Below are positions 23,829 to 58,687 of a stretch of DNA of 64,000 nt, piece after piece. Every line of letters starts with the position of its first letter. Position 1 is the first letter of the stretch. The notes under the pieces are model-generated. The model saw nothing but the letters and a program-made list of their open reading frames with translations, was not told where the DNA came from and did not search any database. This DNA comes from Gammaproteobacteria bacterium (GTDB lineage Bacteria > Pseudomonadota > Gammaproteobacteria > 21-64-14), in assembly GCA_027013145.1 (NCBI GenBank), contig JALUXX010000011.1, positions 62,001-126,000 on the forward strand, given 5' to 3'. Made by a program: the position numbers and the translations under genes.

Positions 23829-24527
23829 ATGAGCCGACGCAAACCGGCGGTCCGGGTCCGACTCGACGACACGGGAATCGGCGAGTTGTCGCCGGAGGAC
23901 ATCCGCATCATTCTGCGCGGCGCTGATGACCTCGTCACGCTCGGCGGCCGCTCCGCGCTCGCCCGGCTGCTCAAAGGCTCGAAGGACAAGCGGCTGCGCG
24001 AGCGGGGTCTCGACGCCTCGCCGGCGTACGGCGCGCTCCGGGACCTCTCGATCGAGGAGATCACGGCGCGCATCGACCGCCTGATCCTGCGGGGCTATCT
24101 GCGGCTCGAATACGACGGGCGCTTCCCGCTGCTCGCCTTCACGCCGAAGGGCTGGGCGATCGAGCGCGAGACCTTCACGGCGGAATGGCTCGCAAAGATC
24201 GACCGCTCACTCGAAGGCACGGGCGATCCCGTCACGCCCGACGATCTCGCGCCCCTCAACCGCGAGGTCCTTTTTGAGTTGCTGGATCGTATGGCGGCGA
24301 GCGGAAACCGCGGATACATCGCGTTCCTCGACGCCTGGGCGCCCCACGCCGTGAAAAAGGTCCGCAAGCGCATCCACCACGTGCGAACGCTGCTCCAACG
24401 GACCGAACGACCGCCCCCGACCATGCCGACCCCGGAGACTCGTAGCCCGGATGCAGGCCGCAGGCCGGAATCCGGGGATCGCGGTGCCGGGAGAAAAGCC
24501 GCTACATCTGCCCTATCCTACTCGTAG
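23829..24527 (+). CDS. RQC-like winged-helix DNA-binding protein (RQC-minor type)
   Basis: About 232 residues. The middle part (SPEDIRIILRGADDLVTLGGRSALARLLKGSKD, then DLSIEEITARIDRLILRGYLRLEYD and FPLLAFTPKGWAIERE) looks like the RQC winged helix of RecQ helicases without a helicase domain, as in the RQC-minor families. Likely binds DNA. The last 30 or so codons (from [14 protein letters not shown]) are not protein-like: they are translated from the first copies of the repeat array that begins at 24441, which also supplies the stop codon. The original C-terminus has therefore been replaced or extended. Confidence 0.65.
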   Translation: MSRRKPAVRVRLDDTGIGELSPEDIRIILRGADDLVTLGGRSALARLLKGSKDKRLRERGLDASPAYGALRDLSIEEITARIDRLILRGYLRLEYDGRFPLLAFTPKGWAIERETFTAEWLAKIDRSLEGTGDPVTPDDLAPLNREVLFELLDRMAASGNRGYIAFLDAWAPHAVKKVRKRIHHVRTLLQRTERPPPTMPTPETRSPDAGRRPESGDRGAGRKAATSALSYS

Positions 24528-24730
24528 CCCGGATGCAGGCCAACGGCCGGAATCCGGGGAATCACGGCGCCGGAGGAGATTCCCGCCCCGGATTGCGCTG
24601 CGCTCCATCCGGGCTACATCTGCTCCATGCCACTCGTAGCCCGGATGCAGGCCGAAGGCCGGAATCCGGGGATCGCGGTGCCGGGAGAAAAGCCGCCCCC
24701 GGATTGCGCTGCGCTCCATCCGGACTACAT
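24441..24730. repeat. Three-copy GTAGCCCGGATG-family repeat array
   Basis: Copies start at 24441, 24523 and 24635. Full copies of about 95 bp run from CGTAGCCCGGATGCAGGCC to CATCCGGGCTACATC, so their ends are inverted repeats and the interior carries GGAATCCGGGGATCGCGGTG and CCCCGGATTGCGCTGCGCTC. The first copy has lost its second half. The array overlaps the 3' end of the RQC-like gene. Confidence 0.85.
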
Positions 24731-24781
24731 CTTCTGGCTGCACCTCGTACCGGGAACCGCAGTGCCGGGGCGGAAGCCCTG

Positions 24782-26143
24782 TCAGTCCCCGTCCTCATTC
24801 TCCGGCACGGAGACTACCTGCGAGAGCTTACGCCTCAGGGTCGAGCGGCTGATCCCCAGTATGCGCGCGGCCATCACCTGGTTCCCGTCGCAGGTCGTCA
24901 ACACGCGCTGGATATGCCAAAGCTCGACTTCGGACAACGGCGTCGCGACCGAGATCCCGCCACCTTCTGCCGGACCCGGGTCCGTCAACGCGACCGCGCC
25001 CGCATCGAGCACCGGGCCGCGGTGCAGTGCGAAGCTGCGTTCGATGACGTTCTGCAGTTGTCGGATGTTCCCCGGCCAATCGTAAAGCATCAACTTCTTG
25101 CGCGCCGCCGGCGTAAAATCCAGCGCCGGATCCCCAAGCCGTTTCCTCAGGTCGCAGAGGAAATGCTCCACCAGAGGAAGAATGTCTTCCCGCCGCTCTC
25201 TGAGCGGCGGTATGTGTATGGGGAGGACCTGCAACCGATAGAACAGGTCCTGTCTGAATACTCCCTCCTTGACCATCTCTTCGAGGTTCCGATTCGTCGC
25301 CGCGATTACGCGGACGTCGACCCGCGCGACCGTGTCGCCGCCCACCGGGCGCACGTCCCCGTTCTCCAGAACCCGTAGCAGCTTCGCCTGCAGCTTCGCG
25401 CCGATCTCCCCGATCTCGTCCAGGAACAAGGTGCCCGTGTCGGCCCTCTGGAAAAGCCCGTCCCGTGCCGTCGTAGCCCCGGTAAATGCGCCCTTAACGT
25501 GGCCGAACAGCTCCGAATCCAGCAGTTCGTCGGGAAGCGTAGCGCAGTTGATCGCAAGATAGGGCCCATCCTTGCGCGAACTCATTTCGTGGATCAGGCG
25601 CGCCACGACGTCCTTTCCGACCCCCGTCTCGCCGACCAACAGCACCGAGATATCTCGATCGCGAATCCGCTCCAGCACCACCAGAATTTCCCGCATCGCG
25701 GGACTCGCCGCCACCACCCGGCCCTGGGCCGCGCCCCCGGCGAGACGCCCTCTCAAGGCCTCGACCTCCCGCCGGAGCGATTGCGCCTCGAGGACCTTTT
25801 CGATCCGGAACCTGAGTTCCTCCAGATTGACGGGCTTGGTCAGGTAGTCATATGCGCCTCGTCGCATCGCTTCCACCGCGCTCTCGATCGAGCTGTAGGC
25901 CGTAAGCATGATGCATTCCGCCCCGCCGGACGAGCGTTCCTCCTCCAGCAGGTCGAGCCCGCTCTCCTCTCCTACGCGCAGATCGACGATGGCGACGTCC
26001 ACGCGGTTCTCCTTCAGCAGCGATCGTGAATCCGAGACGGTTCCGGCCTCAAGAACACGGTACCCGCGGGAGCGCAGGTAGATACCCAATGTGCGTCGAA
26101 TCGACGGCTCATCGTCGACGATCAAAATCGTATAGCCTTCCAT
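24782..26143 (-). CDS. Sigma54-dependent response regulator, NtrC family
   Basis: 453 residues: receiver domain (phospho-acceptor D54 in AIVDLRVGEESG), AAA+ domain with Walker A GETGVGKDV, the sigma54-contacting GAFTGA loop (HVKGAFTGATTA) and Walker B LFLDEIGEIG, then a Fis-type helix-turn-helix (MAARILGISRSTLRRKL). It should activate RpoN-dependent promoters from upstream sites. It is the last gene of the sulfur locus, 7 bp after its kinase. The only strong sigma54-type promoter seen upstream on the same strand is at the head of the porin/sulfur operon, its probable target. The arrangement recalls TspS-TspR of Acidithiobacillus. Confidence 0.93.
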   Translation of the reverse strand: MEGYTILIVDDEPSIRRTLGIYLRSRGYRVLEAGTVSDSRSLLKENRVDVAIVDLRVGEESGLDLLEEERSSGGAECIMLTAYSSIESAVEAMRRGAYDYLTKPVNLEELRFRIEKVLEAQSLRREVEALRGRLAGGAAQGRVVAASPAMREILVVLERIRDRDISVLLVGETGVGKDVVARLIHEMSSRKDGPYLAINCATLPDELLDSELFGHVKGAFTGATTARDGLFQRADTGTLFLDEIGEIGAKLQAKLLRVLENGDVRPVGGDTVARVDVRVIAATNRNLEEMVKEGVFRQDLFYRLQVLPIHIPPLRERREDILPLVEHFLCDLRKRLGDPALDFTPAARKKLMLYDWPGNIRQLQNVIERSFALHRGPVLDAGAVALTDPGPAEGGGISVATPLSEVELWHIQRVLTTCDGNQVMAARILGISRSTLRRKLSQVVSVPENEDGD

Positions 26144-27610: not shown

Positions 27611-28489
27611 TTATGGGCGCACCCGGGAGTAGGTGGCGTTGGAGGCCGCGGCGAAACCATACGGAAAGTGGAGCGCCCTCAATACCCTTTTCCCGCCAGG
27701 CACTCGAATCAGTGACAGCAGATAGTTCCGGAGAAGTTGACGATCCTTTCGGGGCATAGTCTCGGAGACGGCGATCGCCATTTGCGGCTGAGGAGGAGTA
27801 CGCGCAATGACGCGAAGTTCGGACCTGACAGACGGAGAAACGGCCCGTAACGCGGGGGGCCAGGTCCCCCCCAGGTCCACAAGGCCGGAAGCGACCGCGA
27901 GGAGCACCGAATTCTGCGATCCGAAGTATCGGACCTTGAAATCCCTGGCGACGTCGAATCCAATGCTCTTCAGGTACCGGCGGACCATCACGGTGGCGGC
28001 GTAGGCCTGCGGATCCGGGAAGCCGATGGCTAGTCGTTTCCTGACGAGCCCCGGGGCGAGGCGATGAAGCGGGCTCGCCTTGCGCACGACGACAATCCCG
28101 ACGAACGGCTCCTTGGCGACCCGGGCGATGGCGCGATAACCGTAGGGTTCGGCGCGCCGGAACAGCAGCGGATTCAGATACAGGATATCGTACTCGTGCC
28201 TGCGGACACGACTCATGTACACGCGGAAATTGGGGGCGGTCACAAACTCGACCCGGCGGTGGAGCGCCTTGGCCATTCCCGCCGTGAGCGGAATGAACAT
28301 TCGCGCGAGCTGTACGGGACTCTCCAGGGGTAGGACGCCGAATCGCAGGAACGGCTTCGGGGTGGCGGCCGTTGCGGATGCACCGATCGCCCCGAAAACG
28401 ACCAGCGACAGGAACAGGATGACCGCGCGCGCACGCCCCCGTCGTACAGTCGTCTCACGCAGCGTTTGCAACCCGGCGTCGGGGCCCAT
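27611..28489 (-). CDS. PhnD-like periplasmic binding protein
   Basis: About 292 residues. The start at 28489 (MGPDAGLQTL) places a hydrophobic export segment, VILFLSLVVFGAIGASATAA, near residues 23-42; the open frame upstream of it has no family likeness. The mature protein matches the PhnD/transferrin-fold group: FLRFGVLPLESPVQLARMF, YDILYLNPLLFRRAEPYGY, FVGIVVVRKASPL, YFGSQNSVLLAVASGLVDLGG. No transporter genes accompany it; instead a sensor kinase gene follows directly. It is therefore probably a sensory accessory that binds a sulfur oxyanion or similar ligand. The ligand is not known. Confidence 0.8.
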   Translation of the reverse strand: MGPDAGLQTLRETTVRRGRARAVILFLSLVVFGAIGASATAATPKPFLRFGVLPLESPVQLARMFIPLTAGMAKALHRRVEFVTAPNFRVYMSRVRRHEYDILYLNPLLFRRAEPYGYRAIARVAKEPFVGIVVVRKASPLHRLAPGLVRKRLAIGFPDPQAYAATVMVRRYLKSIGFDVARDFKVRYFGSQNSVLLAVASGLVDLGGTWPPALRAVSPSVRSELRVIARTPPQPQMAIAVSETMPRKDRQLLRNYLLSLIRVPGGKRVLRALHFPYGFAAASNATYSRVRP

Positions 28490-28688
28490 CGAGTACAACC
28501 TGGCATGCGACGCCCTGCGGTCAGGCGCATCCCGGCCCCGGTTACAGGGGCGGTCGCCGGTATCGTCCACGCTCGCGGCCGACTTCGACCCGCGAGCCCG
28601 CAACGACGCCGGGCGCGACAATCGATAGGCCCGATCCGGCGCATGGGTACTATAGCACGGCCAAATTCCCATCTGGACCCTCGGAAAT

Positions 28689-29300
28689 TCAGTGGGGCGC
28701 CGGGTGCGCGGGCCGGTGCGGGGGCCCGCAGCCGCGAAAGAAATCCGCGAACGCGGCTAGCTCGGCAGGCGAGAAAGGGTTTTCGTATCTCGTGAAGCGG
28801 GTGCCGTGGATCCCATCGATGAGCCTCGCGGCGAACTCGCGCGCACGCAGCCGACGCGCCCAGCGGAACAGGTCCGGGGCGGGCCGCGGGGCGCGCAAAT
28901 CGGGATAGGCGTGGCAACCCCGACACAGTTGCCGGTAGGTCCGACCGGCCCAGCGTAGCTGCCACCGCGGCGCCCTGCAGCCGGACAGCGCCGCCGCGTC
29001 GAGGGGAAAGGACGCCCCGAGTTCGCGTAACCGCGCGAGCGCGGGGTCGTAGCGGCGCGCCACGAACTCCTTGCGTGTCGCCAACAGGGTGTGTACGACT
29101 TGGGCTTCGCACGCCGGCACATCCTCCAGGTAGGCCCGCGCCGTCAGCGGGAGTACAGCCAGTTCGCTTTCAACCTCGCGGAACACCCCGGTCCGATGCC
29201 GGCCGAACCAGCCTCGCCCGGACAATGCGTGCGCGAGATTGTCCGCGGTGACTTCGAGGAGGGCGGCGAAGGTCCTTCTCCGCCGGCCGGTCCGCAGCAA
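28689..29300 (-). CDS. Haem c-motif protein (CxxCH)
   Basis: A protein of about 200 residues with a single CRGCH haem-attachment motif near the C-terminus (RQLCRGCHAYPDLRAP), followed by an amphipathic region ending PFSPAELAAFADFFRGC that resembles the C-terminal helix of class I cytochromes c. The start is uncertain: TTG at 29300 is offered, a CTG overlapping the rhodanese stop is an alternative. No signal peptide is visible from either, which is unusual for a c-type cytochrome. The place at the end of the rhodanese/DsrE run suggests a link to sulfur-compound electron transfer. Confidence 0.5.
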   Translation of the reverse strand: MLRTGRRRRTFAALLEVTADNLAHALSGRGWFGRHRTGVFREVESELAVLPLTARAYLEDVPACEAQVVHTLLATRKEFVARRYDPALARLRELGASFPLDAAALSGCRAPRWQLRWAGRTYRQLCRGCHAYPDLRAPRPAPDLFRWARRLRAREFAARLIDGIHGTRFTRYENPFSPAELAAFADFFRGCGPPHRPAHPAPH

Positions 29301-29386
29301 TGGTGCGCCGTTGCAGGCGGTCGCAGGGGTCGGCGGCGGCGCGCCGCCAACGCGCGCGCCGCCCGACCTCTGCGCCGGGGATCCGC

Positions 29387-30343
29387 TCAGGGGATCTTCA
29401 CCCTCGCAAGCACCGGGAGTTTTGGGTTCCGGGACCACTGCGCCATGGATCCGTCGTAGACCTTCACGTCCTTGTTCTTGAGGATCTGTGAACTCACGAA
29501 CCAGCCCAGCGAGGCCCAGTGACCGGTATTGCAATAGGTGATCTGCGGGCCGGTCGTGGGGACGCCGGCATAGCGGTAGAGGGCGAGGTACTGCTTCGGG
29601 CTGCGGAACGTTCCCCCGTCGTTCACGGTCAGCCACCCCTGGGGCAGGCTGCGGGCCCCCGGAATCGCACCTGCGCGCTTGTCCATCGGCGGTTTTACGA
29701 CGCCCAGAAACTGATCCGTGGGTCGGTTGTCTACCAGGACGGCATCGTGCGTCTTTACGGCTTTTTCGACCTGGGCCTCGGTCGCCAGGTAGGCCGGATC
29801 GAGATGGGCGACGAATGTCTTCGCGCTACGGGTATATTTCCCTCTGCGAATCGGCAGCTTGGCCTTTACATAGGCCGCATACCCGCCGTTCATGATCGAG
29901 ACGTCGTTGTCGCCGAGGACCTTGAAAGTCCAAAACACGCGCGTCGCGCTGCCGGTGTCCAGGGCGTTGGTCCCCGCGGAGTAGATCACTACGTGAGTAT
30001 GGTTCCCGATCCCCAACCCGCCGATCAGCTTTTCGAGCTGGGCGACGGGGGCCATCATCCCGACCACCCCGTCCTTCTTGACGCGCCAGCCGGCGGTCTT
30101 GTAGTTGCTGTAGACCGCGCACGGCACATGTCCAGCCAGGTAGGTATAGTAATTCCCGCCGCCGCCCACGGGACTGCGAACGTCGATGACGGCAACGCCG
30201 GGCTTGCAGGAATTGCGGGCCACCCATTGCGGCGAAACGAGCGGCAGCGCCGCCGCGCCCAGTGCGATGCCGCAGCCGGCGCCGATCAGAGCGGCTGCAG
30301 CAATCACAGCCGCCGGAAGCGTCAATCGGAAGTCACGTTTCAT
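29387..30343 (-). CDS. Exported thiosulfate sulfurtransferase (tandem rhodanese)
   Basis: 318 residues with an N-terminal signal segment (LPAAVIAAAALIGAGCGIALG) and two rhodanese domains. The first (VIDVRSPVGGGGNYY) is the non-catalytic one. The second has the active-site cysteine in ITYCNTGHWASLGWF, and the CRIPGA-type lead (KRAGAIPGARSLP). It should move sulfane sulfur from thiosulfate or a related donor outside the inner membrane. It lies in the middle of the sulfur operon, near a second rhodanese-like gene that lacks the cysteine. Identification is firm; the donor is inferred. Confidence 0.88.
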   Translation of the reverse strand: MKRDFRLTLPAAVIAAAALIGAGCGIALGAAALPLVSPQWVARNSCKPGVAVIDVRSPVGGGGNYYTYLAGHVPCAVYSNYKTAGWRVKKDGVVGMMAPVAQLEKLIGGLGIGNHTHVVIYSAGTNALDTGSATRVFWTFKVLGDNDVSIMNGGYAAYVKAKLPIRRGKYTRSAKTFVAHLDPAYLATEAQVEKAVKTHDAVLVDNRPTDQFLGVVKPPMDKRAGAIPGARSLPQGWLTVNDGGTFRSPKQYLALYRYAGVPTTGPQITYCNTGHWASLGWFVSSQILKNKDVKVYDGSMAQWSRNPKLPVLARVKIP

Positions 30344-30368
30344 CGTGCTCTCCTCCTGCCTTGTTGAA

Positions 30369-30557
30369 CTAGACCGTGAACACGCGATCGGATCGCGCGA
30401 TCACCTGAACCAACTCTTCGCACATTCGCTCGTCGAGCCCGCCGTCCGAAGTGAAGTCGTAGGTGTACACGTAGTCCATCGGATAGAAATAGTTAAGGGC
30501 GTCCTCGACCGTTTTTCGATCCGGAAACAGCCCGGTCCTGATGACGGTTATGTTCAT
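30369..30557 (-). CDS. Small conserved-looking protein, 62 residues
   Basis: Opens MNITVIRTGLFPDRKTVEDA and contains an aromatic run (NYFYPMDYVYTYDFTSD) and one cysteine (DERMCEELVQV). I do not recognise a family. It is soluble with no membrane segment. Spacing of 34 bp from the DsrE-like gene before it and 25 bp to the rhodanese gene after it argues for a real gene of the sulfur operon. Confidence 0.6.
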   Translation of the reverse strand: MNITVIRTGLFPDRKTVEDALNYFYPMDYVYTYDFTSDGGLDERMCEELVQVIARSDRVFTV

Positions 30558-30591
30558 GTTTCCGATCCTTGCCTCTGTATCATCGGTGCTG

Positions 30592-30888
30592 TCATATACT
30601 CAGGGTAAAATCCGCTTCCGCCAGCATCTCGGCGAGCCTCGAAACCCCGATGGACTCCAACTGATCGGACTCCGGGACCGTGGTCACCGGGACGATGCCG
30701 GCCAGCTCGAGCATCTCCGCCTGTTCGGCCACTTCATCGGTCTCCTCCACCGCCCGGTCCATCAGCACCAGGCGGACCTGATGCCCGAAGACCGTGACGC
30801 CGCTCGCCACACGCATGGCCTCGGCATGATCGCGCCGACCGAGGACGACGATCGTCTTAATGCTTCCTGAATCGCTATCGGACACCAC
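30592..30888 (-). CDS. DsrE/DsrF-like small protein
   Basis: 98 residues with a DsrE-type alpha/beta layout: strand KTIVVLGRRDHAEAMRVASG, strand QVRLVLMDRAV, a helix with DEVAEQAEMLELAGI, and a final LAEMLAEADFTLSI. No cysteine is present, so it cannot carry persulfide itself; it may be the structural partner of the cysteine-containing DsrE-like protein encoded just upstream. Together with TusA and rhodanese genes it points to a DsrEF/Tus-like relay. Confidence 0.6.
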   Translation of the reverse strand: MVSDSDSGSIKTIVVLGRRDHAEAMRVASGVTVFGHQVRLVLMDRAVEETDEVAEQAEMLELAGIVPVTTVPESDQLESIGVSRLAEMLAEADFTLSI

Positions 30889-30934
30889 GGGCTCCTTTTG
30901 AAAGAAATTCCGGTTTCGAACGGCGACCGGCCGT

Positions 30935-31225
30935 CTACAGGCTGATCACCTTTTCCGCTTTCGACAGCATCGCGCTCAACTCCGTCTGGCTCCCCACGGC
31001 GACGGGGCACGTGGTGCCGTCCATAAACCGATCCCAGGAATGACCGCACACAGTCGCCGGCTGTGCCCGGCAAGCGAGTTCCCGGGCCCGCGCGTCGCCG
31101 AGCACACGGACGCCGTCGTCGGTGAAGAAGCACGCCCAGGATTGTCCCAGTCGCTCGCACGCCGAGGTAATCGCACAGAAGACGGGCCCGCTTTCTGGAT
31201 GCGACACGACAAACAGCAGCTTCAT
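30935..31225 (-). CDS. DsrE-like protein with cysteines
   Basis: About 96 residues from MKLLFVVSHPESGPVF (start 31225, four bases after the stop of the upstream gene). The first strand and the glycine turn fit the DsrE superfamily. Cysteines occur in FCAITSACERL, SWACFF, ELACRAQ, TVCGHSW and TTCPVAVG, so it is rich in possible persulfide carriers. Probably a sulfur-relay subunit acting with TusA and the rhodanese. The exact subfamily (DsrE, DsrF, DsrE2) is not clear. Confidence 0.65.
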   Translation of the reverse strand: MKLLFVVSHPESGPVFCAITSACERLGQSWACFFTDDGVRVLGDARARELACRAQPATVCGHSWDRFMDGTTCPVAVGSQTELSAMLSKAEKVISL

Positions 31226-31229
31226 CGGG

Positions 31230-32237
31230 TTAGCCCTTTCGTCGGACGGCCCTGACAACCAGGGCCGCTGTTATCACCAGCACCGCAGCCGCAATCAGCC
31301 CCGTGTATGCAATGGCGTCCAGGGGTTCGTCGCTGTGTCCCGCATCGGTATAGAGACGACCGCAATCGTCCGGTCCCGCGCACCGGCTCGCCATGTCGAT
31401 CGGGTCACCCGCGCGCCCGGACCATTGAACCCACCCCCCGGGATAGACGTCGGCATCGGCATGCAGGCCGGCGGTCAGCGCCGTGAAATACGCGATGCCG
31501 GTGTATGGGTTCGCGGCGTACGCGATCGCGCCGCGATCGATCGCCGGGAGGCTGCGGCCGCGCCTTTCCATTGCCTCCACCCGGTCGAGCGGCAGCGAGG
31601 ACGCCCCCGGGATGTGCCCCCCGACAGTACCGCGGACGTGGGCGCCCCAAAAGCGGCGGTCGGAACGCCCGTCCAGAATCTCAGGCGGAGATGGATGGTA
31701 GAGGCGATTGAGAAGCTCCCCGCGAAACACCAAACGGCGCAGGCGCGGGCGCCCGGCGTACAGGGGGGCGGCCAGCTCCGATCTCGGGCGGCCGGGGCCG
31801 GCGAGCGCGGGATGGCGGCCAATGAATCCGGTGACGGGCGCGCGGACGATCCGGATCTGCCGTTGACCGCACAGATACAACACGCCTGCCACGAAATCCC
31901 GCCGCAGGCGATGATCGCCGACGACGATGGCAGTTTCTCCGGCGTGTATCCCGCTCGTTCCCAGCACCCAGAAGATCTGCCTAAACGATGCGAGCGCCCC
32001 GCGGTAGCCGAGAAAGTCCCGGGGACCGAGGCAGATCGCCCCTCTTAGCGATGCCGACTCGCACTGCTTTCTCGGGCGAGTGTCCACGATGACCTCCCCG
32101 GGCCCGGGCGGGTGCTCCACCGCCCCGACGGCGGTGTATTCCAGTACGCCCGGGGGCGCCGCACCCCCGTAGCCCACGCAGGCGATAACCAGCAACAGGG
32201 CCGTCAGCACGGACTCCGACCTGTACGCCACGGCCAC
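31230..32237 (-). CDS. Membrane-anchored tandem rhodanese lacking catalytic cysteine
   Basis: 335 residues: signal segment (VLTALLLVIACVGYGGAA), two rhodanese-like domains (EVIVDTRPRKQCES... and ...EILDGRSDRRFWGAHVRGTVGGHIPGASSLP), and a C-terminal transmembrane helix (IAYTGLIAAAVLVITAALVV) followed by basic residues. Where an active rhodanese has its cysteine loop, this protein reads AIAYAANPYTGIAYF, so the nucleophile is replaced by Ala. It shares the GGW-W/MAQW element with its active neighbour. It may be a binding or docking partner at the membrane. Its stop lies 4 bp before the DsrE-like start. Confidence 0.75.
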   Translation of the reverse strand: MAVAYRSESVLTALLLVIACVGYGGAAPPGVLEYTAVGAVEHPPGPGEVIVDTRPRKQCESASLRGAICLGPRDFLGYRGALASFRQIFWVLGTSGIHAGETAIVVGDHRLRRDFVAGVLYLCGQRQIRIVRAPVTGFIGRHPALAGPGRPRSELAAPLYAGRPRLRRLVFRGELLNRLYHPSPPEILDGRSDRRFWGAHVRGTVGGHIPGASSLPLDRVEAMERRGRSLPAIDRGAIAYAANPYTGIAYFTALTAGLHADADVYPGGWVQWSGRAGDPIDMASRCAGPDDCGRLYTDAGHSDEPLDAIAYTGLIAAAVLVITAALVVRAVRRKG

Positions 32238-53588: not shown

Positions 53589-53619
53589 GGGCGCCGCGCG
53601 GGGCGGCATCGGTTGGGTC

Positions 53620-54310
53620 CGGCATCGCCGGCGGGCCAAGGCCCGCCCTACGGATGGCCCGTCGGCGCGTAAATCATGGGGTAGGGCCGGGCTTGCCCGG
53701 CCGACGTCGTTGCCTGGTCCGACGGTGCTTGGATCAAACGTCGTCGGCGGGGCAAGCCCCGCCCTACAGGCCGACGTCGTTGCCTGGCCCGACGTTGTTT
53801 GGATCGAACGTCGTCGGCGGGGCCGGTGGCGTCGAACGGTGCGATGCCGCGGGAAGAGGCCACGGGCCCCACGGAACGCACGGAAGAATTGTAACCGGTC
53901 CGTGGGTGCGGTGGATTCCGTGGCGCTTGTGTCTTTGTTCTCGGTAGGCCGCGGGCACCCCGATCCAGGGAACCGCGATCCCGGGCGTCGCCGGCGGGCC
54001 GAGGCCCGCCCTACCGGCGCCCGGGTCGGCGTGGGAGGCGGGGTAGGGCCGGGCTTGCCCGGCCGGGGCCGCTGCCTGGTTCGACGTTGTTTGGATCAAA
54101 CGTCGCCGGCGGGCCGAGGCCCGCCCTACCGGCGCCCGGGTCGGCGTGGGAGGCGGGGTAGGGCCGGGCTTGCCCGGCCGGGGCCGCTGCCTGGTTCGAC
54201 GTTGTTTGGATCAAACGTCGCCGGCGGGCCGAGGCCCGCCCTACCGGCGCCCGGGTCGGCGTGGGAGGCGGGGTAGGGCCGGGCTTGCCCGGCCGGGGCC
54301 GCCGACCGGA
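53620..54310. repeat. GTAGGGC-type palindromic repeats with 115-bp tandem units
   Basis: Hairpin units (CGGCGGGCCGAGGCCCGCC and GTAGGGCCGGGCTTGCCCGG) alternate through the region. From 53986 a 115-bp unit is repeated in tandem at 54101 and 54216; each unit also contains TTCGACGTTGTTTGGATCAA. Between the two blocks, 53845-53985 holds an unrelated segment with CCACGG...CCGTGG inverted pieces. It fills the gap between trmB and the SLC13 gene; no gene is supported in it. Confidence 0.88.
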
Positions 54311-54370
54311 ACGACGGGGTTCGAGGGTCGGGGTGCGTTTGAGCCGGGCGCGCCCGGCCGGGGAGGAGAG

Positions 54371-56206
54371 ATGGCCGAACCGATTACGCTGACCACGGAG
54401 ATGATGGTGGTCCTCGCCATCCTCGGGTTCACGATCTTCCTGTTCGTCTCCGAGCTGGTGCGGGTGGACGTGGCCGGGATCCTGGTGATGGTGATCCTGG
54501 GCCTGATCGGCCTGGTGCCGGGCGACCGGCTGTTCTCGGGATTCTCGAGCAACGCGGTGATCTCGATCATCGCCATCATGATCATCGGCGCGGGGCTCGA
54601 CCGCACCGGCGTGATGGGGCGGGTGGCGGCGTTCCTGCTGCGGGTGGGCGGAAGCACCGAGCGGCGCATCATTCCGCTGATCTCGGGCACGGTGGGGATC
54701 ATCTCGAGCTTCATGCAGAACGTGGGCGCGGCGGCGCTGTTCCTGCCGGTGGTCAGCCGCATCTCACTGCGCACGCGCATTCCGCTCTCGCGCCTGCTGA
54801 TGCCGATGGGCTTCTGCGCGATCCTCGGGGGTACGGTGACCATGGTCGGCTCGAGTCCGCTGATCCTGCTCAACGACCTCATCGCGACCGCCAACGAGGC
54901 CCTTCCGGGCGGTGCGGCGCCGATGAAGCCTTTCGGACTGTTCGCGGTGGCGCCGGTCGGGCTCGCCCTGGTGGGGGCCGGGATCCTCTACTTCGTGCTG
55001 CTGGGCCGGCGCGTGCTGCCGGCCATCGAGACCCCGGCGGCGGGGCCGGGCGAGACCGCGCGCTATTTCGAGGAGGTCTACGGGATCCGCGGCGAACTGT
55101 TCGAACTGGCGGTCCCGCGCGCGAGCGCCGCGGCGGGCGCCGCCGTCGGCGCGCTCGAAAACCGGCCTGGGGCGCCGTTCCTGGTGGCCGTCGCCGACTC
55201 GCAGGGGCTGCGCGTGGCCCCGCACCGCGGCGAGCGGATCGAGCCCGGCAGCCGCCTGTGCGTGATGGGCGATCGCGGCCAAGTGGAGGCGTTCGCCGCC
55301 GCGCTGGGGCTGGAACGGCGTCCCGAACCGGAGACCTTCGCCGACGCGCTCAACCCGACCGTGTCGGGGATCGCCGAGGTCGTCATTCCGCCCAACTCCG
55401 CGGTGATCGGCAAGACGCTGGCCGAGGTGCAGCCGCGGCGGCGCTACGGCGTGGGGGCGCTGGCGGTGTTTCGCGGCGACCGCGTCGTACGCGAGGAGCG
55501 GCGCGAGCTGGTACTGCGCGCGGGCGACACACTGGTGATGCACGGGACCTGGAAGGACCTCGCGCAACTGGCGCGCGAGCGGCGCAACTTCGTGGTCGCC
55601 ACCGACTTCCCGCGCGAGGAGACGCGCCCGCACAAGGTCCCGCACGCACTCGTGTTCTTCGCCGTGGCGATCGCCCTGGTGCTGTTCACGGACTTCCGCC
55701 TTTCGGTGGCCCTGCTCGTCGGCGCGCTGGGCATGATCCTGACGGGGGTGATCCGGATCGACGAGGCCTACCAGGCGGTGGACTGGAAGACGGTGTTCCT
55801 GCTCGCGAGCCTCATCCCCCTCGGCATGGCGGTGGAGACCAGCGGGACGGCGGCGTGGATCGCCCAACAGACGGTGCGGGTCGTCGGGGACTGGCCGACG
55901 TGGGCGCTGCAGGCGGCGGTGGCCGTGCTCGCGACCTTCTTCACGCTGGTGATGTCGAACATCGGCGCCACCGTACTGCTGGTGCCGATCGCAGTGGACA
56001 TCGCCGCCGACACCGGCGCCGACCCGGCGGTGTTCGCCCTCACGGTGGCGCTCGCCACCTCCAACTCCTTCCTGATCCCCACCCACCAGGTCAACGCCCT
56101 GATCATGGGCCCGGCCGGCTACCGCGTGCCCGACTTCCTGCGCGCCGGCGGCATCATGACGGTGCTCTTCCTGGTGGTGATGCTGGCGGTGCTGCGGTTC
56201 TACTGA
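54371..56206 (+). CDS. SLC13/DASS-type permease with TrkA-C domain
   Basis: 611 residues, start at 54371 after a GGGGAGGAGAG site. Two hydrophobic blocks (about residues 12-215 and 425-610) flank a soluble TrkA-C/RCK_C region with VSGIAEVVIPPNSAVIGKTLAEV and LVLRAGDTLVMHGTW. Transport motifs are MQNVGAAALFLPV, GTVTMVGSSPLILLND and VMSNIGATVLLVPIA, SNSFLIPTHQVNALI, as in divalent-anion:Na+ symporters and sulfate permeases of the SLC13 group. Sulfate or a dicarboxylate is the likely substrate; sequence alone does not decide. Confidence 0.85.
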   Translation: MAEPITLTTEMMVVLAILGFTIFLFVSELVRVDVAGILVMVILGLIGLVPGDRLFSGFSSNAVISIIAIMIIGAGLDRTGVMGRVAAFLLRVGGSTERRIIPLISGTVGIISSFMQNVGAAALFLPVVSRISLRTRIPLSRLLMPMGFCAILGGTVTMVGSSPLILLNDLIATANEALPGGAAPMKPFGLFAVAPVGLALVGAGILYFVLLGRRVLPAIETPAAGPGETARYFEEVYGIRGELFELAVPRASAAAGAAVGALENRPGAPFLVAVADSQGLRVAPHRGERIEPGSRLCVMGDRGQVEAFAAALGLERRPEPETFADALNPTVSGIAEVVIPPNSAVIGKTLAEVQPRRRYGVGALAVFRGDRVVREERRELVLRAGDTLVMHGTWKDLAQLARERRNFVVATDFPREETRPHKVPHALVFFAVAIALVLFTDFRLSVALLVGALGMILTGVIRIDEAYQAVDWKTVFLLASLIPLGMAVETSGTAAWIAQQTVRVVGDWPTWALQAAVAVLATFFTLVMSNIGATVLLVPIAVDIAADTGADPAVFALTVALATSNSFLIPTHQVNALIMGPAGYRVPDFLRAGGIMTVLFLVVMLAVLRFY

Positions 56207-56226
56207 AATGGCGCGCGGAAAGAAAA

Positions 56227-56253
56227 GGGCCGCGGAGGGGATCTCCGCGGCCC
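56227..56253 (-). terminator. Terminator of the PEP-CTERM gene
   Basis: A perfect 11-bp stem (GGGCCGCGGAG/CTCCGCGGCCC) with a 5-nt loop. On the minus strand it is followed by CTTTTCTTTC, so it ends transcription from the PEP-CTERM gene. It may also slow transcripts from the SLC13 gene. Confidence 0.7.
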
Positions 56254-56295
56254 CGGTTGCGGGCTGCGGGGTGCCGCAGCCGGTATTCCCGGGCC

Positions 56296-57132
56296 TCAGC
56301 GCCGCCGCAGACGCCGCGCCGCCGTCCACCCCAGCAACGCCACTCCGATCAGAACCAGCGTGGCCGGTTCCGGCACGCTCGGCGTTCCGCCACCCGTGAA
56401 GCCGCCGCCTCCGATGCCGAGGTTGCGCGCACCGAATGCGACCGGCTTGCCGTTGTCGGCCCCGAACCGGGCCAGGCTGTCGGTCACCTCGAAGACGGTG
56501 AACAGACTGGTGTCGATACCGTCGTAGAAGCTGTGGGTGATGTCGCGGTCGACGACCGGGTCGGTGAGCCCGATCGCGAGACCGGCGGCCGTCGGCGCGA
56601 AGACCCCGCTGACACTGATCGTGTTGTTCACCGCGGTCCCGAACGAGGGTACGAAGTCGTACCAGCTCTGGCCGAACCCCTCGTCGGTATTCACGTACAG
56701 CGAGCCTCCGCCGTTGAAGTAGGTGGCGAAGGCGGAGGCCGCGGAAGCGAGGTTCGCCGCAGCCGCGGGGGTACTGCCCGAGCCCACCATGACGGCATCG
56801 AAGCCGCCGCTCAGGGCACCGCCGATTCCGGCGGCGGTGGCCGAAAAGAAGGTGGGGCTGTATCCGGCGCTGGCGATGCCGGAAGGTGTACTGCTTCGAT
56901 TGACGCCGATGTAGGCGACGGACTTGCCGGCCCGCGCGGCGGCAGTCGAGGCCGTTCCGAACAGGGTGTAGTCAAGTCCCGCGGCCATGTAGGCGCTGTT
57001 GTTGTGCTCATCGGAATCGTGGCCGGTGATGAAGATGTTTCCCGCGTGGACCGGGAAGGCGAACCCGAGCGCGAGCATGGCGGCGATCACGCCGGCGCGA
57101 GCCGTTCGGGCGGTGCTCGATCGGAGTCTCAT
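56296..57132 (-). CDS. PEP-CTERM sorting-domain protein
   Basis: 278 residues from MRLRSSTARTARAG, with a signal peptide ending FAFPVHA-GNIF. The mature protein opens NIFITGHDSDEHNNSAYM and has a GATase-like Rossmann layout with DAVMVGSGSTP and THSFYDGID. The C-terminus is a textbook sorting signal: SVPEPATLVLIGVALLGWTAARRLRRR. It should be processed by an exosortase encoded elsewhere and released or anchored with exopolysaccharide. A sigma54-type promoter and two upstream repeats precede it. Confidence 0.9.
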   Translation of the reverse strand: MRLRSSTARTARAGVIAAMLALGFAFPVHAGNIFITGHDSDEHNNSAYMAAGLDYTLFGTASTAAARAGKSVAYIGVNRSSTPSGIASAGYSPTFFSATAAGIGGALSGGFDAVMVGSGSTPAAAANLASAASAFATYFNGGGSLYVNTDEGFGQSWYDFVPSFGTAVNNTISVSGVFAPTAAGLAIGLTDPVVDRDITHSFYDGIDTSLFTVFEVTDSLARFGADNGKPVAFGARNLGIGGGGFTGGGTPSVPEPATLVLIGVALLGWTAARRLRRR

Positions 57133-57284
57133 GGTCGGTTTCCTCCTGCGCATTCTCCGTTGGGTGCTCCGGAGGCCCGGAGCGGTTGAAATCGGCTGCG
57201 GCGGCGTGTACCCGCCCGGGCCGCCACGCCGGCCGACCGCTCATTGTCGTCCGCGGTCCTCGATCCGGCGCGTATCCAAAGAAC

Positions 57285-57300
57285 TGCCAGATTCGTGCCA
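57285..57300 (-). promoter_or_regulatory. Sigma54 promoter of the PEP-CTERM gene
   Basis: On the minus strand TGGCACGAATCTGGCA has a perfect -24 element (TGGCACG), four spacer bases and TGGCA for the -12 TTGCA, with GG and GC exactly 12 bp apart. Start expected near 57274, 142 bp before the ATG at 57132. Confidence 0.75.
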
Positions 57301-57359
57301 TCGTCAGCACTACAAATCAATTCAGGTGCTTGCGGAGGCGGATCGCGTAGGGCAAACGA

Positions 57360-57512
57360 TGACCGTAAAATATCCTGACGCCGGAACTGGGACCCAGTGG
57401 CCCGCGCGCGCCGCTGGCCCGGCAAGAACCGATAAACACAAATCGATTCATGTTGTTACAATACGTCCGCCGAACCCCCTCAGGAACTGGAAACCGTAAA
57501 ATCTCCTGACAC
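57360..57512 (-). promoter_or_regulatory. Two direct repeats upstream of the PEP-CTERM promoter
   Basis: On the plus strand CCGTAAAATATCCTGACGCC (from about 57362) and CCGTAAAATCTCCTGACACC (from about 57493) differ at two positions and are 131 bp apart. They lie about 86-107 and 217-238 bp upstream of the predicted sigma54 start, suited to an enhancer-binding protein. Confidence 0.55.
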
Positions 57513-57811
57513 CCAGCCCGGAAACCGCAATAAAACAATCAACTATGCCGTTGGGTCGGTGACAAACGCGTCTCATTCTCAGCGCCGTGATTCGGCCTTC
57601 GGGGGTTGCCACCGCGCGGGTGAACAGCCGCCGACAGCCCTCCGTGCCGCCCGGCGACGCGCCCCCTCGGCGTCCGCACTTGTGGCCCGGACGCCGCCTA
57701 GGGCAGAATCGCCGATTGCCTGCCCCCGCCGGGGAGCTGTCATCCGGCCCGCTGATGGTCCAGTGGCGGGCCGTGCGGGCTCGCGAACGTACCCGAATCC
57801 AGGAGTGAGAC

Positions 57812-58687
57812 ATGTCGGAACAGCACCCGATCATCGCCGTGACGGGGTCCTCCGGGGCCGGCACGAGCACGGTCAAGCGCGCCTTCGAACACATCTTCCG
57901 GCGCATGGGGATCAACCCGGTGATCGTGGAGGGCGACAGTTTCCACCGCTACGACCGCCAGGAGATGAAGAAGGCGATCGCGGAAGCGCACGCCGAGCAT
58001 CGCAACGTCAGCCATTTCGGGCCCGAGGGCAATCTCTTCGATCGCCTCGAGGCGCTGTTTCGCGAATATGGGGAGACCGGGGGCGGCCAGCGCCGCTTCT
58101 ACCTCCATAGCGAGGAGGAGGCGGCGCCGTACAATCAGGAGCCGGGCACCTTCACCCCGTGGGAGCCGATTCCGCCGGACACCGATCTGCTCTTCTACGA
58201 AGGGCTGCACGGCGGGATCGTGACCGACAAGGTCAACGCCGCACGTTACGTCGACACGCTCGTCGGCGTCGCCCCCATCGTGAACCTCGAGTGGATCCAG
58301 AAGATCCACCGCGACTGTAAGGAGCGCGGCTACAGCGCCGAGGCGGTCACCGATACGATCCTGCGACGCATGTACGACTACGTCCACTACATCACGCCGC
58401 AGTTCTCGCGCACTCACATCAACTTTCAGCGCGTACCGACCGTAGACACCTCCAATCCCTTCATCGCGCGGGAGATTCCCACGCCCGACGAGAGCTTCGT
58501 GGTGATCCGCTTCCGCGATCCGAAGAGCGCGGATTTCCCCTACCTGTTGCGGATGCTGCACGATTCCTTCATGTCGCGCCCCAACACGATCGTGGCCCCG
58601 GCCGGCAAGATGGGCTTCGCCATGGAGATCATCCTCACGCCGATCATCGAGCGGCTGATGGAGAACCGGCGCAAGGGCCGGCACTGA
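57812..58687 (+). CDS. prkB: Phosphoribulokinase
   Basis: 291 residues of the proteobacterial (PrkB) type. P-loop AVTGSSGAGTSTVKRAF, then EGDSFHRYDRQEMKKAI, and the catalytic and substrate region FYEGLHGGIVTDKVNAARYVDTLVGVAPIVNLEWIQKIHRD, with the C-terminal FIAREIPTPDESFVVIRF. It makes ribulose-1,5-bisphosphate for RuBisCO, so the organism has the Calvin cycle. RuBisCO genes are not in the window. The following gene starts 17 bp after its stop and is probably co-transcribed. Confidence 0.96.
   Translation: MSEQHPIIAVTGSSGAGTSTVKRAFEHIFRRMGINPVIVEGDSFHRYDRQEMKKAIAEAHAEHRNVSHFGPEGNLFDRLEALFREYGETGGGQRRFYLHSEEEAAPYNQEPGTFTPWEPIPPDTDLLFYEGLHGGIVTDKVNAARYVDTLVGVAPIVNLEWIQKIHRDCKERGYSAEAVTDTILRRMYDYVHYITPQFSRTHINFQRVPTVDTSNPFIAREIPTPDESFVVIRFRDPKSADFPYLLRMLHDSFMSRPNTIVAPAGKMGFAMEIILTPIIERLMENRRKGRH

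Follow-up and report, generated by a model that had tools for sequence, protein, structure and literature searches.

Sigma-54 promoters assisted by IHF are known generally for activators of the NifA, XylR and NtrC type, and Desulfovibrio reportedly provides an example. The locus analysed here resembles such promoters in having an enhancer, a bend site and a -24/-12 promoter and in an apparent dependence on the helical face, and differs from them in that the activator would belong to the PrsR family and in that the IHF-type site keeps a near-constant distance from the -24 element while the enhancer shifts by whole turns.

The closest described system is that of the PEP-CTERM genes. According to the portion of Haft et al. 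2006 (BMC Biol 4:29, PMC1569441) drawn upon here, most proteobacterial PEP-CTERM genes are preceded by a box and a sigma-54 site. The box is a 17-nt motif ending in TTTACA, repeated in some cases, and is separated from the sigma-54 site by a spacer of 62.8 +/- 10.6 nt (range 32-92 nt), with a leader of about 71 nt on average (range 23-221 nt) between the sigma-54 motif and the start codon. PrsR is the predicted box binder, assigned by phylogenetic profile, the species profile of the box having matched that of PrsR/PrsK/PrsT exactly. The present locus shares with that system the TTTAC(A) motif, the spacer of about 63 nt, the -24/-12 element, the encoded PrsR/PrsK/PrsT, the long intergenic region that precedes a single PEP-CTERM gene and the repetition of motif 1, which is occasional in the published system. 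In contrast to that system as described in the same portion, every promoter identified here in the genus has two boxes and two PrsK-PrsR pairs are encoded, and neither an IHF-type element nor spacing steps of 11 bp are mentioned in those parts of PMC1569441. In Aquincola tertiaricarbonis, transcription of pepA is rpoN1-dependent and its -24/-12 promoter (TGGCAC / CTGCTT) has been mapped (PMC9850573). It is likewise a PEP-CTERM gene with a predicted enhancer upstream, from another organism and encoding another protein, and RpoN dependence is experimental in Aquincola and predicted here (PMC9850573).

The 64,000-nt stretch of DNA analysed here, hereafter the window, very probably contains a sigma-54 (RpoN) promoter of the PEP-CTERM regulon, at which PrsR would act from two boxes with the help of an IHF-type bend and helical phasing. 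The always-doubled boxes of the genus, the IHF-type site and the 11-base spacing rule appear, as judged from sequence, to go beyond the published findings; no paper linking IHF with PEP-CTERM promoters was found in the open-access literature, and no report of PrsR binding the predicted box was found in the literature.

The promoter and the gene behind it

The features observed in the window are as follows.

56296..57132, minus strand: PEP-CTERM protein gene, 278 aa from the ATG at 57132 (285 aa if the start is 57153)
57142..57147, minus strand: putative ribosome-binding site AGGAGG, preceding the ATG at 57132, predicted from the sequence
57285..57300, minus strand: putative sigma-54 -24/-12 promoter TGGCACGAATCTGGCA, with GG-N10-GC spacing and supported by the composite score
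57320..57332, minus strand: IHF-type element CAAGCACCTGAAT, starting 32 nt upstream of the T of TGGC
57364..57380, minus strand: proximal PEP-CTERM box CGTCAGGATATTTTACG (Haft motif 1; predicted PrsR site), its core ending 64 nt before TGGC
57446..57458, minus strand: IHF-like element TAACAACATGAAT, downstream of the distal box and belonging to the duplicated unit
57495..57511, minus strand: distal PEP-CTERM box TGTCAGGAGATTTTACG, 131 bp upstream of the proximal box
57812..58687, plus strand: divergent neighbour of the phosphoribulokinase family (PRK15453), with both boxes in its upstream region

From the far end towards the gene, the order is box TGTCAGGAGATTTTACG, TAACAACATGAAT, box CGTCAGGATATTTTACG, CAAGCACCTGAAT, TGGCACGAATCTGGCA, AGGAGG and ATG, and both boxes share the orientation of the PEP-CTERM gene. 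The near-consensus sigma-54 promoter of the original prediction was confirmed at 57285-57300 on the minus strand, and the two nearly identical upstream motifs that it had reported were located at 57364-57380 and 57495-57511, where they form two copies of the 15-nt core GTCAGGA[T/G]ATTTTAC. A second repeat, which that prediction did not include, is present at 57312-57327 and 57438-57453 (ACAAATCAATTCAGGT / ACAAATCGATTCATGT) and overlaps the IHF-like element adjoining each box. Sigma-54-type sites of the same quality number four in the window against 1.3 expected, TGGCACGAATCTGGCA alone being unexceptional; the composite score of box, spacer and sigma-54 site, in turn, is 39.9 for the window against a best of 18.4 in 192 kb of Markov-shuffled sequence.

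By its sequence the window promoter is a member of the published class, the layout and occasional box duplication of which are already known, because it carries the published features apart from the last base of the box: two copies of the 17-nt motif 1, each with G for A at the end; a spacer of 64 nt from core to TGGC, followed by -24 (GG) and -12 (GC) elements spaced GG-N10-GC; a sigma-54 motif 152 nt before the start codon of a PEP-CTERM gene, within the range of 23-221 nt; and a genome encoding PrsR, PrsK and PrsT (TIGR02915, TIGR02916 and TIGR02917, over cut-offs). The suggestion that the motif is the PrsR site is thereby supported, since the site corresponds to the published PEP-CTERM box, of which PrsR is the predicted binder. 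Some details count against this explanation. The sigma-54 site departs once from TGGCACN5TTGCW, with TGGC for TTGC in the -12 element; both boxes end in G (TTTACG) in place of the usual TTTACA, A being found at 94% of 36 other sites; and the leader of 152 nt to the ATG at 57132 (131 nt to 57153) exceeds the published mean (71 nt), though not the maximum (221 nt).

The product of the gene matches PF07589 (28.0 bits, cut-off 20.7) and TIGR02595 (22.9 bits, cut-off 16) and comprises a signal peptide, recognised by eye, a body and a SVPEPATLVLIGVALLGWTAARRLRRR tail (PEP motif, transmembrane stretch and basic tail), as in exosortase-sorted PEP-CTERM proteins, and the genome encodes the exosortases XrtA and XrtD. 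Translation likely begins at 57132 rather than 57153, with AGGAGG just upstream. A paralogue on contig 66 is 35-37% identical, and no orthologue was detected in 54 relatives at E <= 1e-10; the AlphaFold model (mean pLDDT 34) is unusable. The gene is absent between trmB and prkB in the one genus relative compared. Over 53600-57800 the window adds to this interval a citrate/sodium-sulfate-type transporter gene and the PEP-CTERM gene, and the relative has a gap of ~465 bp with a box-like GGCAGATTTTTTACA (L190, about 8677), possibly the remnant of the promoter of a lost gene. No sigma-54 site directed at the phosphoribulokinase gene was found upstream of it. A perfect tandem repeat is also present at 53986-54302 (period 115 bp, 2.8 copies, 100% identity); it looks genus-specific and interspersed between genes, because contig C11 (ORF start regions near 24301-25158 and 28351-31587) and the genus relative (L189, L190) carry similar GC-rich repeats.

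Predicted regulon members and encoded regulators

The 3.28-Mb genome as a whole contains three copies of the 15-nt box core GTNAGGANATTTTAC when no more than one mismatch is allowed, all before PEP-CTERM genes, namely the two window boxes and one before the paralogue on contig 66. Relaxing the pattern yields 17 sites, of which 7 precede CTERM-type genes (about 0.03 would be expected), so that the genome-wide enrichment to be looked for under the original prediction is observed before PEP-CTERM and VPLPA-CTERM genes of this genome. A composite scan, with box and sigma-54 weights derived from other genomes, was performed on 285 kb of stretches around CTERM genes, prs genes and pattern matches. 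It identified nine promoters, preceding seven CTERM-type genes, one lipoprotein-like gene and one BTAD regulator, with scores of 26.9 to 44.9 (shuffled sequence never exceeded 18.4), and further regulon members may exist elsewhere in the genome because the scanned stretches were selected.

Window, 57285-57511, minus strand: one composite promoter, PEP-CTERM gene
C66: two composite promoters, PEP-CTERM genes
C29 and C42: one composite promoter each, PEP-CTERM genes
C16:238105 and C11:233078: two composite promoters, VPLPA-type genes
C53:97063: one composite promoter, lipoprotein-like gene
C16:261914: one composite promoter, BTAD-domain regulator

Control of exopolysaccharide operons by the box, which had also been envisaged, is unsupported, because no composite site was found near exosortase or prsKR genes or operons in the scanned stretches, which represent part of the genome. 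The BTAD-domain (SARP-like) regulator, of 660 aa (G000:C16:262145-264127; L026:4145-6127), has a doubled-box sigma-54 promoter in both genus species (in the second, L134) and is possibly a regulatory, non-CTERM member of the PrsR regulon. A PEP-CTERM match at C10:16423-16485 (L009) contains an in-frame TAA and probably represents a PEP-CTERM gene that has decayed.

When 84,980 genomes were searched for the combination of box, spacer and sigma-54 site, 12 places were returned, all proteobacterial, and the downstream ORFs carry a PEP/PAP/PTP-type sorting tail wherever they are readable to the end, such tails in other genomes being judged by eye and by a loose C-terminal rule. A strict pattern applied to 369 genomes of the class gave only two sites (L048 and L049), both before a 117-aa ORF, which we take to be DUF3135-like, and not before a CTERM gene. 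These two sites have an exact box and sigma-54 element, gaps of 63 and 64 and an IHF-type site, and their genomes are not on the PrsR-positive list.

All the components that the proposed promoter would need are encoded. One PrsK-PrsR pair (C11:38119-41583) adjoins PrsT and the VPLPA-type exosortase XrtD (TIGR04152, 568 bits), and the other (C29:29945-33414) adjoins a PEP-CTERM gene; the profile scores are 696 and 672 bits for PrsR (cut-off 502.6) and 821 and 805 bits for PrsK (cut-off 300). XrtA is encoded on C42 (TIGR03109, 323 bits), RpoN by one gene on C5, IHF-alpha on C60 and IHF-beta on C38 (TIGR00987, 160.9 bits and TIGR00988, 155.0 bits, both over cut-off). The phylum sample contained 50 PrsR-positive genomes, and none but this one has two PrsR genes over the cut-off. 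PrsR1 and PrsR2 are 64% identical, are not sisters in the tree and differ in their recognition helices; their origin by a recent local duplication was rejected, the tree showing an ancient divergence.

Spacing steps and the IHF-type element

The 51 box-to-sigma-54 gaps fall in clusters at about 53, 64, 75, 86 and 97 nt. Gaps outside the main mode have a best period of 11.3 bp (R = 0.82, with 0 of 5000 null draws as high), and an independent period of 11.3 bp is seen in the box-to-box distances of the genus (p = 0.003 with the period scanned and 0.0004 with the period fixed), these p-values being optimistic because some sites are related by descent.

The IHF-type motif YAANNNNTTGATW, with at most one mismatch, was found in 24 of 43 spacers against 4.0 expected and a maximum of 10 in 200 shuffles; the spacers came from 7 promoters of this genome and 36 of other genomes, the latter retrieved with patterns in which only the box and sigma-54 letters were fixed. 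As a rule, 31-33 nt separate the start of the element from the T of TGGC downstream of it, with the box at 53, 64 or 75 nt, and 6 of 11 additional promoters, taken from prsR loci and from the genus relative, also contain it. A weight matrix built from the 36 outside sites and applied to both strands of the seven spacers of this genome placed the best match in register in six, the window included, and the in-register match was second best by 0.1 in the seventh. On the window this model scores 7.9 at CAAGCACCTGAAT and 0.2 at the next best position of the spacer. Enrichment and fixed register thus hold family-wide, and the window copy itself is two mismatches off the E. coli IHF consensus WATCAANNNNTTR (reverse YAANNNNTTGATW), which counts against the proposed explanation.

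By analogy with NtrC-type activators in general, from which the binding proteins, the bending by IHF and the requirement for RpoN are drawn, PrsK, a histidine kinase, would activate PrsR, an NtrC-type enhancer-binding protein, by phosphorylation, and phosphorylated PrsR would bind both boxes (57364-57380 and 57495-57511). In the interval from the proximal box to the promoter, some 32 nt upstream of the -24 element, the DNA would be bound and bent by IHF or a comparable protein, such that the AAA+ domain of PrsR could reach RNA polymerase-sigma54 at 57285-57300 and open the promoter, thereby switching on the gene of the exosortase-sorted surface protein. One helix face would be shared by box, bend and promoter, for which reason the spacing would shift in steps of ~11 bp.

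Doubled boxes and competing explanations

Two boxes are present at all 13 promoters found in the genus (nine in this genome and four in a second species) and at 2 of 44 elsewhere, that is, at 1 of 33 external promoters selected for perfect proximal boxes and at 1 of about 11 around prsR loci, which were not so selected. In this genome the second box lies 110-223 bp upstream in the same orientation at all nine promoters (8/8 of the first set and the BTAD promoter), and in the second species all four composite promoters found in the 49% of the genome covered are doubled. Fisher's test gives p = 1e-4 when 8/8 is compared with 1/11 and p = 4e-11 when 13/13 is compared with 2/44, with promoter kinship ignored and with a bias towards pairs, as some promoters of this genome and the genus were first found through strong boxes. 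Orthologous copies of the BTAD promoter occur in both species, with the box pair at 122 and 121 bp, and the retention of this distance argues for function. The distal box, which is always of the TGTC form, may be a high-affinity or co-operative site.

Alternatively, the distal box could be a passive relic of a local duplication of ~130 bp, comprising the box and the adjacent element, and add nothing to a promoter and proximal box that are functional. The repetition of the IHF-like element along with the box in the window, as after a segmental duplication, and the sufficiency of one box for most regulated genes elsewhere agree with such an origin. However, one duplication cannot explain the doubling at all 13 genus promoters because the box distances differ so widely (110-223 bp); moreover, distal boxes are often nearer the consensus than proximal ones and the BTAD pair is retained in two species despite diverged flanks, and we regard a relic as unlikely. 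That the two boxes are read by different regulators, PrsR1 (C11) and PrsR2 (C29), with the promoters integrating two signals, can be entertained tentatively. Two PrsK-PrsR pairs, unmatched in the rest of the 50 sampled PrsR-positive genomes, differing recognition helices and an initial T in 13/13 distal vs 6/13 proximal boxes (p = 0.005) favour this division of labour, but the box cores are almost identical, no PrsR was seen in the roughly half of the second species' genome covered, and PrsR1 and PrsR2 need not have arisen with the box pairs because they diverged long ago.

Two further alternatives concern the bound proteins. The IHF-type element might be an A+T-rich track or the site of another protein, kept for polymerase contact without IHF, given that the spacers are A+T rich and that in GC-rich genomes the agreement of the copies with the E. 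coli IHF consensus is partial. This appears doubtful in view of an enrichment that is orientation-specific (6 of the motif in the opposite orientation vs 3.6 expected in the 43 spacers), a fixed register and the recovery of both half-motifs, YAA and TTGA, with the correct 4-nt spacing. As for the boxes, the genome contains eight or more other NtrC-family matches, which could supply another sigma-54 activator in place of PrsR; such a substitution is highly improbable, as the box patterns recovered boxes in PrsR-positive genomes and the species profile reported in the portion of Haft et al. 2006 cited above (PMC1569441) coincides with PrsR/PrsK/PrsT.

Regulation by PrsR from paired boxes, with an IHF-type bend at a sigma-54 promoter, is thus the preferred reading. 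A more ambitious version, which seems unlikely to hold in full, combines these parts into a four-part switch (the PrsR box pair, the IHF bend and the sigma-54 site) with intervals quantised at ~11.3 bp, in which both boxes would be required at every genus promoter and be read by the two PrsK-PrsR pairs, two signals being integrated before the surface proteins are made.

The switching-on of PEP-CTERM/exosortase surface proteins, which are linked to flocs and biofilms, is barely studied. A position-locked IHF-type element and the ~11-bp rule would provide a better promoter model for finding regulon members and a cheap mutational test, and the period of 11.3 bp may be a readout of the helical repeat of DNA in vivo. 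With its always-doubled boxes and two PrsK-PrsR pairs, the genus would offer a natural system in which to ask whether two signals are integrated.
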